This document shows, in pieces, positions 82 through 14,900 of a DNA stretch of 17,795 nt. Every line of letters begins with the position of its first letter. The stretch's first letter is position 1. The notes beneath the pieces are model-generated. The model made no database searches. It was given only the letters and a program-made list of their open reading frames with translations, and was not told where the DNA came from. This DNA is from Myxococcota bacterium (GTDB taxonomy: Bacteria > Myxococcota_A > UBA9160 > PR03), in contig JASJBO010000209.1 of NCBI GenBank assembly GCA_030066475.1, forward strand, positions 1 through 17,795. The letters are read 5' to 3'. Both the position numbers and the translations under genes were made by a program.

Positions 82-131
82 GGACTTCGCTCGCCTGCGG
101 CTCGCTGCGCGCGCCCTGCGGGCGCTTGCGG
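82..131 (+). repeat. Dispersed hairpin repeat, copy A (first two hairpins only)
   Basis: This is a 50-base partial unit starting GGACTTCGCTCGCC and followed at a 52-base period by copy B. It holds hairpin 1 (GCC-TGC-GGC core) and hairpin 2 (GCGCCC-TGC-GGGCGC, 111-125). It lacks the third hairpin found at the right end of complete copies. It lies beyond the 3' end of the minus-strand gene that stops at 229. Confidence 0.85.
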
Positions 132-133
132 AT

Positions 134-209
134 GGACTTCGCTCGCCTGCGGCTCGCTGCGCGCGCCCTGCGGGCGCTTGCGTGGGGCTTCTGCCGCGCG
201 GGCTCCTGG
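134..209 (+). repeat. Dispersed hairpin repeat, copy B (complete, 76 nt)
   Basis: This is a complete unit, identical to copy A over the shared part. Hairpin 1 has core GCC-TGC-GGC and hairpin 2 is GCGCCC-TGC-GGGCGC. Hairpin 3 is TCTGC-CGC-GCGGG, paired with two T:G wobbles. The right end reads CTCCTGG where the tandem copies near 14.7 kb read CTCCTAG. No gene is visible between position 1 and the stop at 229. Confidence 0.85.
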
Positions 210-3624: not shown

Positions 3625-6171
3625 TCAACGCCCGAAGCTGGGCGGCGGCTCGGTGAGCGGATCGCACGGCACCTCGCGGCCCTCCGAGAGCTCGAAGGGC
3701 TCCGGCTCGGTGCCGTCGGCGCTGAAGCCGTCGCACACGCCCTCGCAGAAGTCGTCGATCACGCCGGTCGCCAGCCAGGTGGTGATCTGCTGCACCCCGG
3801 CCCCGGTGCGAAAGCTGCGGCCGTGCGGGTCGCAGTTCGAGGCGGCCGTGTCGTTGGCCAGCGGCGGTACGAAGGGCAGGATCTCGGGGTCGTCGAGGTC
3901 GTACATGCCGAGGTCGTGGTAGACCATCGCCCCGACGAAGTCCGCGTCGCCCTCGGCGAGCGGCGCCGGCTGGTCGGGGATGCCCAGCAGTCCGTTCACC
4001 GCCGAGCCCGCCGGCCCGGACGCGTCGTACAGGTTGGGGATGCCGAGCCCGCGCGCCGTCATCTCGGACGCCTCGTTCGACACCACGCCGTCGAAGCGCG
4101 CCACCGTCATCAGCACGTCCTTGGCCTCGCCGCTCCCGGGGAGCGGGTCGCGCACGACGTGGTGCAGGTAGCCGCCCGGCTCGGCGCTGTCCCACAGCTC
4201 GGTGCCGAGCGAGAAGAAGATCGCCTGACTCATGGCGTCGCGGTTCAGGAAGTCGAGCACCGCCGCGATCAGCCCGATCGCGGTGGAGCGCTGGATCATC
4301 ACGGAGAAGTTGCTGGCCGGGACGTCCACCGCCACGCGGCGCAGGTCGGGCGAGACCGCCGCCGTCAGCAGCCCCATGATGCCGCCGAGGCTCACGCCGA
4401 AGTAGTCGAGCTCCGCTCCGGTGTCGAACACGCCGACGGCGGGCGGGGTGCCGCCGCCGCCCGGTCCCTCCGCCTCGACCCGGAACGCGGGGTGCGTGTT
4501 GAAGGCGCCGCGCTTCATCATGCGCGCCAGCACCAGCGTGTTGACCACGCCCTGCCGCAGTCGGTCGGGCAGCGTGCCGAAGTTGGCGGGGTCGAACAGC
4601 ACCGCGTTGGTGATGAAGCTGGCGCCGCCGACCGAGAAGTCGTAGCTCGACAGTCCCAGCCAGTCGGTCGCGCCGCCGATGCGCTGGTAGCGGCCGAGCC
4701 CCTGCTCCACCAGGACGCCGTCGAGCGCGTTCGCCAGCAGCGAGGCGCCGCCCGCGTTGCCGAACAGGCCGTGGCCGAGCAGGATCGGCGGCAGCGACGT
4801 GCCGCCCTCGTCGAGGACGCCACACGGGATGGCGACCTCGAAGTTCGCCTGCATCGTGCCCTGGATCTCGGGGAGCCCGTCGCCGTCCTCGTCGACCAGC
4901 CGGCCGCCGACGGTGGGTGCCAGCAGCGGGTCGGAGTCGAGGAACAGGGGGCTCGTGAAGGTGCCGCGCACCAGCCGCCAGACGCGCTCGCCCGGGTCGG
5001 CGCAGTCGTTCTGGAGCGACGCGTCGGTGCCCTCGGGCGGGTCGTCCAGCAGCGGGAAAACGGTGAAGGTCTCGCCCCACTGCGCGTCGAGCCAGTCGAG
5101 TGCGCGGGCGCGCATCGCGACCAGCTCGCGCGTCAGCTCCTCTTCGCTCTGGACCACGAAGTCGAAGGCGAGCAGCAGCTCGTGCCGCGCGACGCCGGCC
5201 TGCTCGAGCAGCGCGAACAGCGCCTCCATGTCCGGGCGCCGCTGCTCGACGGCGTCGATGGTGGTGGGCCGCCGGTCGCGCAGCGCCGCGAAGACCGGCT
5301 CGGCCTGGATGGGCGTGCCGTCCGGGCGCACCAGGCTTCGCATCGCCACCACGTAGCGATGGCCGGGCTGGAGCGCCGCGGCGGGGCGCAGGAACAGCAG
5401 CTCGCGCTCCGGGAAGGCGCCGCGCGCCGCGCGCGCGTCGGGCTCGACGAAGTGGAGCACCGGCGTGAGCCCGTCGGTCACGTCCAGCAGCAGCGTCGGG
5501 CTGTCCGACTCGAGCGAGCGGCCGTCGGTGCTGCGGGTCGCCGCCAGCAGGCGCGGGGCGTTCGAGAGCTCGGGATCGACACCCCCCTCGAAGGCGGTGA
5601 GCAGCTGTACCAGCGGGCTGAAGCCGTCCTGCCGGTTGAGGTCGGCCGGCGAGAAGGGCACCGGGAAGCCCGGGATCGTCTCGGGCGTGAGCGCCAGGCG
5701 CACCCCCGTGGCACGGCTCGCATCGGGCTCGAGGAAGCGCGACGAGGGGTAGGGCAGCATGCAGTCGACGTCGCTCAGTACCTCGCAGGCGTCCGGGTCG
5801 CCGCGCAGCGCGACCAGCCCGAACGCCTGGCGGGCCACCAGCGCGGACGCGAGCCCGCCGAGGTCGAGCTGGATCACGGCGCGCAGCACGTGCTCGCCGG
5901 CCGCGAGGCCCTCGATCACGCCCGAGGCGATCCCCGCCTCGATCGCCACGGCGCCCGGGTCGAGCGGGACCCCGTCGACCTCGACCACCAGGGTCTCGAT
6001 CCGCCCCCGGCGAGGCAGGTCCAGCGACCAGGCGACGGGACCCACCAGGGAGAGCTGCCGCTGGGCGGGCGTGAGGAAGCGGAAGCTGCCGGTGCCGAAG
6101 GAGCAGGGCGCGACGGCCAGGCAGGCGAGCGCGGCCAGCGCCAGGATCAGCGTGGAGCGGGGGGCGAGCAT
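3625..6171 (-). CDS. Large exported alpha/beta-hydrolase-like protein
   Basis: This 848-residue protein has an N-terminal signal sequence (MLAPRST, then a hydrophobic run to about residue 23). The start at 6171 is supported by GAGGTGG just upstream; the frame extends to 6222 without a better site. The C-terminal half has alpha/beta-hydrolase hallmarks: LLGHGLFGNAGG (residues 464-475) resembles the HG oxyanion-hole motif, and YFGVSLGG carries the nucleophile elbow GxSxG with Ser594. A loop DEDGDGLPE (427-435) resembles a DxDxDG calcium-binding loop. The N-terminal 400 residues lack a family I recognise and may be Ig-like or adhesive. Bacterial proteins of this architecture are usually annotated as secreted hydrolases or Ig-like-domain lipases; the substrate is unknown. 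A Cys sits near the end of the signal sequence, but Pro at -1 argues against lipidation. The NMO-like gene follows after four bases. Confidence 0.75.
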   Translation of the reverse strand: MLAPRSTLILALAALACLAVAPCSFGTGSFRFLTPAQRQLSLVGPVAWSLDLPRRGRIETLVVEVDGVPLDPGAVAIEAGIASGVIEGLAAGEHVLRAVIQLDLGGLASALVARQAFGLVALRGDPDACEVLSDVDCMLPYPSSRFLEPDASRATGVRLALTPETIPGFPVPFSPADLNRQDGFSPLVQLLTAFEGGVDPELSNAPRLLAATRSTDGRSLESDSPTLLLDVTDGLTPVLHFVEPDARAARGAFPERELLFLRPAAALQPGHRYVVAMRSLVRPDGTPIQAEPVFAALRDRRPTTIDAVEQRRPDMEALFALLEQAGVARHELLLAFDFVVQSEEELTRELVAMRARALDWLDAQWGETFTVFPLLDDPPEGTDASLQNDCADPGERVWRLVRGTFTSPLFLDSDPLLAPTVGGRLVDEDGDGLPEIQGTMQANFEVAIPCGVLDEGGTSLPPILLGHGLFGNAGGASLLANALDGVLVEQGLGRYQRIGGATDWLGLSSYDFSVGGASFITNAVLFDPANFGTLPDRLRQGVVNTLVLARMMKRGAFNTHPAFRVEAEGPGGGGTPPAVGVFDTGAELDYFGVSLGGIMGLLTAAVSPDLRRVAVDVPASNFSVMIQRSTAIGLIAAVLDFLNRDAMSQAIFFSLGTELWDSAEPGGYLHHVVRDPLPGSGEAKDVLMTVARFDGVVSNEASEMTARGLGIPNLYDASGPAGSAVNGLLGIPDQPAPLAEGDADFVGAMVYHDLGMYDLDDPEILPFVPPLANDTAASNCDPHGRSFRTGAGVQQITTWLATGVIDDFCEGVCDGFSADGTEPEPFELSEGREVPCDPLTEPPPSFGR

Positions 6172-6295
6172 GGACCACCTCGTGGGGAGCGGGCTTCGCC
6201 GCGGGAGCGCCCTGGGTAACACGCGGCGGCGCCCGCCGTCCAGCGGCTGCCCGCGGGGTCCTTCCCCTCGTCCCGTCGGCGCAGCTCTAGCGGGT

Positions 6296-6370
6296 GGACT
6301 TCGCTCGCCTGCGGCTCGCTGCGCGCGCCCTTCGGGCGCTTGCGGGGGCTTCTGCCGCGCAGACTCCCAG
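6296..6370 (+). repeat. Dispersed hairpin repeat, copy C (complete, 75 nt)
   Basis: This single copy lies in the divergent gap between the hydrolase-like gene (start 6171) and the PEP-CTERM gene (start 6471). Hairpin 1 has core GCC-TGC-GGC, hairpin 2 is GCGCCC-TTC-GGGCGC and hairpin 3 is a perfect TCTGC-CGC-GCAGA. A CTAG (6287-6290) sits just to its left. The rest of the 299-base gap shows no promoter I can defend. Confidence 0.85.
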
Positions 6371-6470
6371 GGTCGAGATCCCCATGCACGAGTCGTCGAA
6401 GGCGGTTACCCGCGAGGCTGGCCGCCCTCTCTGCGTCGAAGCTATCGTCCCCGCCAGGAGCGCCGTCGAG

Positions 6471-7244
6471 ATGGCGCCGAGTACCGCCCTGATGCACACG
6501 TCGAAGGCCTTGCTGGTCGGTCTGGTCACCTTGGCTCTCGCGGCTCCTGCGACGGCGGCGGTCGTCCCGTTCTCGGGTGGTGTCGGTCTCTCGCTCTTCG
6601 GGTTGCCTCCGATCGCAGTGACGGGCACCGGCATCGCGACCATCGGCGGCTCGGGCGGGGGCGCGCACGTCGGCACGCTCTCGATCCCATCGACGCCGTT
6701 CGCGACCACGGGCGTGCTCGTGCCGGTGACCGATCCGTTGGCGTTCCCGATCGAGGGCCTGCAGGCGACCCTGCACAACGGCGCGGGGAGCTTCGCGAGC
6801 GGCAGCGGAACCGGCACCCTGAACGGTCCGATGGCGCTCCAGGGTGTGGCGCGGTTCTGCCTTCTCGCCTCGTGTGGCGCCTCGCCGGAGGCCAACGTGA
6901 GCGTGCCGCTCTCGGTGATCGGTGTGGGCGGCGCGCAGACGGCTTCGGTGCTCGTGAACGCGACCGTCTTCGGCAACCCGTGGACCACGGGTACCCTCTC
7001 GCTCGGCACGGTCACGCAGATGGGCTTCGCGCACGGGCCGGCCTCGGGGACCAGCTCGACGGCCAGTGCCTCGGGTGCCCTGCGGTTGGTGACGCCGATC
7101 TTCATCTCGACGAACATCTTCCCCGCGTCGTCGCTCCTGACGTTCGCGGTGCTGGACCTGCACGTTCCGGAGCCCGGCACGCTGCTGCTGCTGGGCTCGG
7201 GCGCGGTGGGCGTCGTGCTGCTCGGCCGCTCGCGCCGCGGGTAG
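6471..7244 (+). CDS. PEP-CTERM sorting-domain protein (exosortase substrate)
   Basis: This 257-residue secreted protein is rich in Gly, Ser, Thr, Ala and Val and very poor in charge. The N-terminus is a signal peptide (HTSKALLVGLVTLALAAPATAA). The C-terminus is a textbook PEP-CTERM tag: VPEPGT, then a hydrophobic segment LLLLGSGAVGVVLLG, then the basic end RSRRG. Such proteins are exported, cleaved at the PEP motif by an exosortase in the inner membrane, and usually end at the surface or in extracellular matrix. The middle resembles no domain I know. I chose ATG 6471, preceded by AGGAG about 11 bases upstream; ATG 6492 starts closer to the signal peptide but has no ribosome binding site. The exosortase at 12119-13138 is the obvious processing enzyme. 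Codon choice looks slightly less GC-biased than in its neighbours. Confidence 0.92.
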   Translation: MAPSTALMHTSKALLVGLVTLALAAPATAAVVPFSGGVGLSLFGLPPIAVTGTGIATIGGSGGGAHVGTLSIPSTPFATTGVLVPVTDPLAFPIEGLQATLHNGAGSFASGSGTGTLNGPMALQGVARFCLLASCGASPEANVSVPLSVIGVGGAQTASVLVNATVFGNPWTTGTLSLGTVTQMGFAHGPASGTSSTASASGALRLVTPIFISTNIFPASSLLTFAVLDLHVPEPGTLLLLGSGAVGVVLLGRSRRG

Positions 7245-11495: not shown

Positions 11496-12122
11496 TCACG
11501 GCTGACAGGTCGCCTCGTAGTGGCGCCAGGCGGCGGCGAGCCAGTCGCGCGCGCGTTCCTCGAGCTTCGGCAGGTTCCACGGCGCGGTTCCCCCGCTGAT
11601 CAGGAACAACGTGAGGGGCCGGGTCCCGTGCAACAGCTGCGAGAAGCCCGAGCGCAGCTGGGCGACGAGGGGCCGCGCCACCGGCTCGCCCGCGTACACG
11701 AACAGGAAGGCGACCAGCCGCTTCCGGGCGCCGGTCTCGTCGTAGACCATGCGGATCGGCAGCGTGCGGCCGTCGACCTCGATCTCGTCGACGTTCTGGC
11801 GTTCGGCTTCGATCTGCGGCTCGACCAGCGAGCTCGGGCGCTCGCTCAGCCAGCGCGCCCGGAAGCTGCGCACGATCTGGAAGGTGGGTCGGCCGTGTCC
11901 CTCGACTTCGCCGCTGGTCCACTGGACCCGCGTCGATCGGCTCGAGATCGCGCGCTGCTCGGCGCTCAGGGTCCCCTCGATCCGGAGCGCGTCGCGGAAC
12001 GCCTCGGGATCGGCGCAATCCTCGTTTCGGTAGCGCCCGATTCCGTGAGTGACCACGGGCACCGATGCCGCCGCGAGCAGCACGATCACGAGCCAGTAGA
12101 AGCGCCGGGAGATCGGAATCAC
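11496..12122 (-). CDS. EpsI-like exosortase-associated membrane protein
   Basis: This 208-residue protein has one N-terminal transmembrane segment (about residues 8-24, [18 protein letters not shown]) and a soluble domain that should face the periplasm. I recognise no strong catalytic motif. The identification as an EpsI/DUF3485-type exosortase partner rests on size, topology, the [22 protein letters not shown] segment, and position. Its GTG start overlaps the exosortase stop in the sequence GTGA, so translation is coupled. Partners of this kind are fused to or encoded beside many exosortases and are thought to help processing or polymer export. The longer open frame to 13055 is the shadow of the exosortase gene. 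Cys35 and Cys206 could form a disulfide. Confidence 0.72.
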
Positions 12123-13138
12123 GTGAACGCCTTCCGGATCGCGTCGCGATCGGAGATCCAGAACAGGCCGCCGAGGATCAGCCAGAAGGTGAACACCCCC
12201 GACGCCTCGTGAAGCGGGCTGTCGAGGATGGGCCTGCCCCAGCGCTCCGTCAGCAGCACCAGGATGGCGACGCGCAGCGTGTTGGAGATCAGCGCCAGTG
12301 GGAGCGGGAGCAGAATCAGGATCAGACGCCGCCACCAGGAGCGGCAGTACCAGGTCAGCACCAGCGAGACGGCCGCGGCGGCGTACAGGGTGGCCACGCC
12401 GCTGCACGCGTCGGTGACGATGAACGTGTTGTTCGCCATCTCGAGGACCGTCTGCTCGCGCAGCACGGGGACCCCGATCGCCTTGATCAACGGCTCCACG
12501 GCGGCCGCCGTGGCGAGCCGCAGGAACAGGTGCGTGCCCACCGCGTTGGGGATCGGGATCATGAAGGCCGCGATCAGCAGCGGCATCGTGAGCGCCCGGG
12601 TGCGGCGCGGCCCCAGCAGCAGCAGCGCGAGGCCGGGCAGCGCCACCACCAGCCCGACGGCCGAGAGGTGGCGGGTGCGCACCGCCGAGTCGAACACCAC
12701 CAGCCCGAGCCCCAGCAGCAGGAAGGGCAGGCCCCAGGCCGACGACTCCTCGCGGTCGGAGCGGTCGCGGCGCAGGATGGCCAGGGTCAGGTAGGCCATC
12801 ACGAGGGGCACGAAGATGCCGTGGGCGTTGATCCAGATGCTCGAGGTCCACTGCTGGTAGAGCCACACCAGCGTCGGGCCGAACGCCGTCCCGAGCAGCA
12901 GGATCAGCGGCAGGAGCCGGAGGTTGTGGGGGGTGAGCAGCTCCGCCTTCGGCGGCGCGCCTTCGGGGCCGTGCTGCGGAGAGGGCGGGGTCCAGCGCCG
13001 GTAGACGAACACGCCCACCGCCACGACGCTGCCGGCCAGCACCGACGGCAGCCACTCGTTGGGCGTGAACGGGCTCACCGCCACCAGGGCGCCCAGCAGG
13101 CCAGCGAAGCCCAGCTCTCGAAGCGACGCGCGATTCAC
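12119..13138 (-). CDS. Exosortase (PEP-CTERM protein-sorting membrane transpeptidase)
   Basis: This 339-residue polytopic inner-membrane cysteine protease of the exosortase/archaeosortase superfamily recognises PEP-CTERM tails. The catalytic triad is visible: Cys245 in [11 protein letters not shown], Arg289 in [10 protein letters not shown] and His310 in [11 protein letters not shown]. The conserved upstream segment [14 protein letters not shown] (104-117) and MIPIPN (193-198) also fit. About eight to ten hydrophobic helices are present. I place the start at GTG 13138, with GAAGG 8 bases upstream. An in-frame GTG at 13231 would add 31 polar residues with no ribosome binding site. The gene overlaps the EpsI-like gene by 4 bases. 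Its likely substrate is the PEP-CTERM protein at 6471-7244; such enzymes usually serve many substrates across the genome. I cannot assign the subtype. Confidence 0.92.
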
Positions 13139-13374
13139 TCTGGAGCCTTCATCGATCCCCGTCGGGTGCGCTTGACCGAGCGCGTTGCCGGAGGGCCGGA
13201 CATGGTTGCGCAGAACCTGGAAATCATCCACTATGCCGGGGGTTTACGCGTTCGGCGAGCGTCTTTCGCCACGCCGGGTCGAATCGCAGGCGCCCGGGCC
13301 GGGTCCAAGCCGGCGACGACATCGGCGACGGACCGGCAGGTGTGTTGGACGCGGGCGCCCAACGCCAGGTCTAT

Positions 13375-14550: not shown

Positions 14551-14562
14551 CCCCTAGCTGGT

Positions 14563-14638
14563 GGACTTCGTTCGGCTTCGCCTCACTGCGCGCGCCCTCC
14601 GGGCGCTTGCAGGGGGCCTGTGCTGCGCACGCTCCTAG
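14563..14638 (+). repeat. Dispersed hairpin repeat, copy D (tandem array, first unit)
   Basis: This is a 76-nt unit starting 13 bases after the HTH/TPR-like stop and framed by CTAG at 14554-14557 and 14635-14638. Hairpin 1 has core GGC-TTC-GCC, hairpin 2 is GCGCCC-TCC-GGGCGC, and hairpin 3 has core GTGC-TGC-GCAC. Relative to copy C, hairpin 3 carries a swapped C:G to G:C pair, and relative to copies A-C hairpin 1 carries a swapped C:G to G:C pair. Confidence 0.88.
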
Positions 14639-14654
14639 ACCTAGACCTAGCTGA

Positions 14655-14730
14655 GGACTTCGTTCGGCTGCGCCTCACTGCGCGCGCCCTCCGGGCGCTT
14701 GCGGGGGGCTTCTGCCGTGCAGACTCCTAG
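14655..14730 (+). repeat. Dispersed hairpin repeat, copy E (tandem array, second unit)
   Basis: This is a 76-nt unit between CTAG 14647-14650 and CTAG 14727-14730. Hairpin 1 spans 14662-14678 (core GGC-TGC-GCC), hairpin 2 spans 14684-14698 (GCGCCC-TCC-GGGCGC), and hairpin 3 spans 14711-14723 (TCTGC-CGT-GCAGA). The short spacer to copy D reads GACCTAGACCTAG and contains two extra CTAG sites. Confidence 0.88.
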
Positions 14731-14734
14731 CTGA

Positions 14735-14810
14735 GGACTTCGTTCGGCTGCGCCTCACTGCGCGCGCCCTCCGGGCGCTTGCAGGGGGCGTCTGCCGCGC
14801 ACGCTCCTAG
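14735..14810 (+). repeat. Dispersed hairpin repeat, copy F (tandem array, third unit)
   Basis: This 76-nt unit repeats copy E at an 80-base period and ends at CTAG 14807-14810. Hairpins 1 and 2 match copy E. Hairpin 3 (TCTGC-CGC-GCACG) has one C:C mismatch and looks like an intermediate between copies D and E. Positions 14811-14900 beyond it show no gene or promoter I can defend. Confidence 0.88.
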
Positions 14811-14900
14811 CCTAGCCGCCCGTTCGGGTGATCCGGGTGTTGAGCGGCCGCCCCCAGCACCATGTCTCCGGGTGAGAGGAGCCCCCCGAGAGCTGGCGGG

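Follow-up and report, generated by a model that had tools for sequence, protein, structure and literature searches.

A REP-like dispersed repeat in a class of Myxococcota: two adjacent hairpins with preserved pairing

A dispersed repeat that occurs six times in the window (the whole stretch of DNA analysed, 17,795 nt) and in many related genomes has a core of two adjacent hairpins followed by TTGC. The first hairpin (H1) is nearly invariant apart from compensated pairs, and the arms of the second (H2) are nearly free in sequence. The repeat is a lineage-restricted, non-coding, dispersed element. We explain it, with moderate confidence, as a REP-like repeat of which the complementary strand folds and is recognised as a single-strand hairpin by a putative trans-acting enzyme.

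All copies in the window lie on the + strand and start with GGACTTCG (Table 1); apart from the truncated copy A they are about 76 nt long. A sequence-only reading of this DNA had proposed a dispersed repeat of that length with hairpins, and the six located copies bear this out. It had also assigned the H1 differences between copies A-C and copy E to two symmetric pairs, and the four differences are indeed exactly positions 9, 13, 19 and 23 of the repeat, i.e. pairs 9:23 and 13:19. Its further claim of an unchanging H2 stem, GCGCCC/GGGCGC, holds inside the window, where the loops are TGC, TTC and TCC, but not in relatives, where the stem varies. Pair changes in a third hairpin (H3) are readable in the window sequence on the basis of five copies only, and among 203 copies from relatives the stretch 3' of TTGC is little conserved. 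CTAG adjoins both ends of copies D, E and F (14554-14815) and may be a target or duplication motif; at the right end it was found in 14 of 215 copies from relatives vs 4 in control windows. Copy C sits between the start of an 865-aa ORF (3625-6222, - strand) and a PEP-CTERM gene on the + strand. The contig also carries genes for an exosortase (EpsH family; 12119-13231) and the PEP-CTERM protein (6294-7244).

Table 1. Repeat copies in the window and an example of the putative folding strand
Feature	Position	Strand	Parts
Copy A, truncated 52-nt unit	82..133	+	H1 85-110, H2 111-125, TTGC 126-129; without third hairpin
Copy B	134..209	+	H1 137-162, H2 163-177, TTGC 178-181, then H3 stretch
Copy C	6296..6371	+	H1 6299-6324, H2 6325-6339, TTGC 6340-6343, then H3 stretch
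Copy D	14563..14638	+	H1 14566-14591 (T:A and G:C variant), H2 14592-14606, TTGC 14607-14610, then H3 stretch
Copy E	14655..14730	+	H1 14658-14683, H2 14684-14698, TTGC 14699-14702, then H3 stretch
Copy F	14735..14810	+	H1 14738-14763, H2 14764-14778, TTGC 14779-14782, then H3 stretch
Putative folding strand, example (reverse complement of copy F core)	14738..14782	-	GCAA, GNA-capped H2, GCGCAG, H1 with tandem GA/GA patch and GNA loop

The pairing was analysed in 271 unique copies, an uneven set drawn from the window plus 34 genomes, one of which, G051, contributed 91. Four copies with three mismatches were excluded from the H1 counts (n = 267). In the numbering of the H1 26-mer, to which 3 is added to obtain the repeat numbering, pair 6:20 (= 9:23) was C:G in 210 copies, T:A in 47, C:A in 6 and of other kinds in 4, and pair 10:16 (= 13:19) was C:G in 168, G:C in 94 and of other kinds in 5. 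Pair 5:21 was G:C in 266 of 267, and 9:17 and 11:15 were invariant. Watson-Crick pairing was kept at 9:23 in 257 and at 13:19 in 262 of the 267 copies, compared with means of 213.5 (maximum 227) and 186.5 (maximum 204) when the 3' letters were re-dealt within genomes 1000 times; since many copies share descent, they do not amount to independent events. For each pair, both variants were found inside single genomes, e.g. in G049 and in the window.

One correction concerns H1, whose stem is interrupted by a 2x2 TC/TC mismatch situated between the two covarying pairs. Most letters are fixed by the search pattern, and H1 was therefore recounted in an unbiased scan in which the internal and apical loops were free and five Watson-Crick pairs and TGCGC were demanded. 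The TC/TC patch was present in 267 of 307 matches; in 15 of the remaining matches one and in 6 both patch positions were Watson-Crick paired, and 19 had another mismatch, so that retention of the patch is not absolute. In the 267 TC/TC matches pair 6:20 was C:G (207) or T:A (60) and never reversed, i.e. always pyrimidine:purine. A similar scan yielded 238 matches in loci of the class vs 1 in control loci of other taxa.

H2 was studied in the 210 of 271 copies (at most two mismatches, no N) that have TTGC within 75 nt. Among them were 138 distinct H2 sequences, 50 in G051 alone. Hairpin-like versions (up to 31 nt, at most two mismatches) made up 99 of the 138; the other 39 are longer, pair more poorly or meet an earlier TTGC before the true end. 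Stems of at least 5 bp were formed by 63 of 102 distinct versions, vs 7.2 with the arms re-dealt, and by 36 of 50 in G051 alone (re-dealt mean 8.3, maximum 17). In 52 distinct aligned cores with a 15-nt H2, a set that favours hairpins because its rows were picked by H1 match and H2 length, 97.9% of the cells were paired vs 75.2% after shuffling. The covariation score of these cores was 0.496 vs 0.144, none of 500 shuffles scored as high, and slid structures reached 0.083 at most; pairs changed on both sides (7 vs 6.2) and further pair types (10 vs 9.7) were not above the shuffles. RNAalifold returned the same two helices plus two invariant pairs. Thus, H1 covariation and H2 pairing exceed shuffled or re-dealt controls far beyond the window, in line with the earlier claim that pairing is being preserved. 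From this we infer that the structure is functional, with DNA and RNA both in play.

With a 31-nt pattern and up to 3 mismatches, the repeat was detected in 40 of the 90 genomes examined from one Myxococcota class, the richest being G051 with 85 + 82 = 167 matches; the same pattern read backwards gave no match in any of the 90. At looser settings this control gave 1 to 13 matches per genome at 3 mismatches, and chance therefore contributes in part to counts obtained there. Allowing 1 mismatch, a 27-nt pattern was found in 43 of 377 genomes of the phylum, including six outside the class list (G131, G142, G188, G312, G334, G362). It was absent from 717 genomes sampled in three other groups (0/199, 0/229 and 0/289), those of G007, G012 and G001, with loci titled as MAGs of Acidobacteriota, Gammaproteobacteria and Alphaproteobacteria, respectively. 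A covariance model matched 82 of the 90 class genomes at E <= 0.01, many of them weakly and with rough E-values; the best E was 1e-10 or lower in 39 of 90. No exact 48-nt match was present in the genome contig collection and no 31-nt match among viral contigs, and blastn against plasmids and phages gave only 1 and 3 records, partial and with E about 0.2. The class had been reached via G010 (locus L058, CAJPFO010000280.1) and G002 (locus L003, JANQFK010000079.1), whose proteins were 63-64% identical. By the 865-aa protein the nearest relatives are G033 (55%) and G002 (54%); when SerC (phosphoserine transaminase) served as the marker instead, most of the loci obtained were alphaproteobacterial and lacked synteny. 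Named relatives of the window's DUF1329 protein occur in Deltaproteobacteria and Myxococcota MAGs; the DUF1329 proteins of one Deltaproteobacteria MAG are 70-71% identical to it.

The strand complementary to the one first read is probably the one that folds, because its C(GNA)G loops and its GA/GA patch in Y-GA-R context are stable DNA motifs; the choice rests mainly on recognition of these motifs. On this strand the H1 loops are GAA (122), GCA (93), GGA (30) or GTA (15), i.e. GNA in 260 of 267, and the H2 triloops are GNA in 49 of 77 with a closing C-G in 71 of 77. The Y-GA-R context favours sheared tandem G.A pairs in DNA, and the GA/GA patch would, judged by its sequence, adopt this geometry. 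As sequence, H1 and many H2 resemble d(GNA)/d(GNNA) minihairpins in loop and closing pair. The minihairpins differ in being a structural motif and no repeat family; among the literature matches listed, none tied such minihairpins to repeats of this kind. Loops of GNA or GNNA on G-C stems are described in PMC4686876 as giving extraordinarily stable DNA minihairpins. The GAA minihairpin is reported in PMC6479982 to be 6 degrees more stable than that with GTA, which fits the commonest and the rarest H1 loop. Wobbles leaned to the complementary strand without significance in both H1 (C:A 6 vs T:G 1, p 0.125) and H2 (A-C 7 vs G-T 3, p 0.34). H3 of copy B, kept through G-T wobbles on the opposite strand, counts against the choice. 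With DNA energy parameters the proposed H1 fold was not the optimum in two examples. Replication-strand bias as judged by local GC skew was not convincing (20 of 50 loci; G024 alone 5 of 20).

The genomic context was determined for 150 copies in loci of at least 4 kb, using our own gene caller, which over-extends starts (e.g. at copy C). Tandem gaps held 58 copies, convergent gaps 35 and divergent gaps 8; 39 overlapped a predicted gene and 10 were at edges. Overall, predicted genes cover 81%, and the gaps >100 nt are 172 tandem, 69 convergent and 82 divergent. Divergent gaps are avoided (8 of 101 intergenic copies vs 82 of 323 gaps >100 nt), and the location of the copies matches that of REPs, near 3' ends and with neighbouring genes unidirectional or convergent. 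No gene family stood beside copies in more than two loci, and four did so in two each (167 adjacent among 801 predicted genes). In 30 loci of relatives of the 865-aa protein no copy was found on the 5' side, the position of copy C, with L322, L323, L330 and L345 having <230 nt there; as these relatives are only 36-55% identical, all that follows is that the position is not old. On the 3' side a copy was present in two loci.

Neighbouring copies within 250 nt were direct in 59 cases and inverted in 2. A subfamily in G036 starts with CGCCGCTCG, ends with CTACGC and often forms short arrays with the same inner hairpin. In G049 (L190-L208; e.g. L196 at 9029, L199 at 5442) composites were observed in which the core lies inside outer arms of about 20 nt. 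These arms vary by site and are yet complementary, with 311 of 340 cells paired in 17 copies vs 237.8 when re-dealt (maximum 264 of 300 re-dealings); one copy (8 of 20) misfits. Runs of N stand beside several copies in the G024 loci L210-L229.

The placement near 3' ends and away from promoters would also suit a role as RNA, in which transcribed hairpins block exonucleases or help termination and pairing is selected in the transcript; we consider this possible but doubtful. Many of the G051 copies stand right beside stop codons in a single orientation, and within 150 nt of a stop codon the proposed strand is the mRNA sense in 24 copies and the opposite in 3. Other genomes are mixed (bottom- to top-sense 7 to 10 in G049, 3 to 4 in G023, 5 to 5 in G024 and 2 to 5 in G027), and tandem gaps gave 33 to 25 (p 0.36), which speaks against a general RNA role. 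Of the 39 copies that overlap predicted genes, 30 have the proposed strand as sense, although this bias may mirror which frame gives a tolerable protein. Where copies are read through predicted genes, one frame yields ARSEPKASE-like peptides. Under RNA parameters the proposed strand was the more stable one for 52 of the 54 distinct H1 and for 155 of the 177 cores, but the strand differences fall inside the spread of random 46-mers. Also against RNA, GNA triloops prevail over GNRA or UNCG tetraloops, and no Rfam family reached its gathering score in the window or in 8 loci with copies, the best match being a chance-level P35 (19.6 bits vs a cut-off of 70).

Several features are shared with REPs that are moved by TnpA-REP/RAYT and tagged with GTAG, i.e. 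high copy number, intergenic location near gene 3' ends and a hairpin in single-stranded form whose complementarity is preserved. PMC8266576 reports that the E. coli REP is bound in the form of one single strand and depends on a conserved mismatch patch, activity being abolished once the patch is repaired. According to PMC3733652, REPs are located between genes in unidirectional or convergent arrangement and may act as a source of TAG stops. Preserved complementarity and complementary changes in REPs had already been noted (PMC2817692), and therefore covariation alone is not new. Unlike GTAG REPs, the present repeat comes from another taxon, has a second hairpin of nearly free sequence, and lacks tag enrichment, a consistent RAYT and inverted neighbours. 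CGTC-tagged REPs, also described in PMC3733652, are likewise reported without a dedicated transposase, but they have a CGTC-type end, stems of 8-9 bp and mostly head-to-head dimers; in the repeat studied here CGTC is not enriched and neighbours are direct. The main text of that paper contains neither 'Myxococc' nor 'Deltaproteobacteria'. In 215 copies, GTAG and CGTC were no commoner near the ends than in windows further out, and the 2 inverted against 59 direct neighbours do not indicate HH/TT dimers, BIMEs or REPINs. Because the tests for a tag, a flanked RAYT and inverted pairs all failed, we call the repeat REP-like and not REP. As for MITE features, no common ends were seen beyond the core; the G049 composites have complementary outer arms of about 20 bp. 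The DNA strings of the repeat were absent from the searched literature, and none of the titles and abstract beginnings among the matches listed describes it. Our literature searches turned up no repeat that combines a kept G.A patch, GNA loops, a second hairpin of free sequence and direct arrays.

The repeat could still be a REP moved by a RAYT (Y1 transposase) that is encoded elsewhere, has been lost or was missed by assembly, in agreement with the REP-like placement, copy number and mismatch-bearing hairpin; we consider this unlikely. Of the 90 class genomes, 34 have a Y1_Tnp match; the share is 19 of 40 among those that carry copies and 15 of 50 among those that do not (Fisher p 0.13). G030 (the fifth-richest genome), G028 and G027, with 69, 65 and 54 repeat matches, have 6, 6 and 3 Y1_Tnp matches. 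The four genomes richest in matches (G051, G097, G049, G023), MAGs that may be incomplete, gave no Y1_Tnp match, and neither did G024, whose repeat matches are all on one 3.67-Mb contig. A copy was present at only one (L112) of 30 Y1_Tnp loci, about 1.4 kb away. The link to a RAYT that had been suggested for the repeat is thus not supported by these data, and the lack of GTAG and CGTC enrichment and the direct neighbours likewise argue against this explanation.

It is quite improbable that the matched changes reflect mutation instead of selection, i.e. template switching in hairpins that corrects quasi-palindromes. Many H2 stems and the G049 outer arms are perfect palindromes of differing sequence, as such correction would produce, but for H1 it is disfavoured because 267 of 307 matches retain, uncorrected, the patch that lies between the covarying pairs. 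It is very improbable that the unit forms a single long hairpin of 76 nt on the + strand: copies D, E and F fold in this way (z -2.2, -2.9 and -4.0), unlike copies B and C (z -0.7 and 0.2), a covarying H1 base is left unpaired, and the fold includes sequence beyond TTGC, which shows little conservation in relatives.

In our preferred reading, a REP-like repeat recognised as a single-strand hairpin, the complementary strand would become single-stranded and fold into the H1/H2 hairpin, and a trans-acting enzyme, not clearly a RAYT, would recognise the folded form and copy or move it to positions between genes, often close to the 3' end of a gene, as is thought for TnpA-REP with REPs. Direct arrays would arise through tandem duplication. 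Against mobility, no transposition event, empty site or enzyme was seen in the loci examined. More tentatively, the repeats may be RAYT-independent mobile ssDNA hairpins, with a putative enzyme reading the GNA cap and tandem sheared G.A pairs of H1 and the neighbouring H2 by shape alone, so that copies with their own H2 would still be mobilised. If true, REP-like elements would extend to a Myxococcota class without the usual tag and without a consistent transposase. The copies would then represent a natural selection experiment on nucleic-acid structure, with a G.A patch, a GNA preference and a hairpin selected by shape, and would make it testable how REP-like repeats without a dedicated transposase spread.
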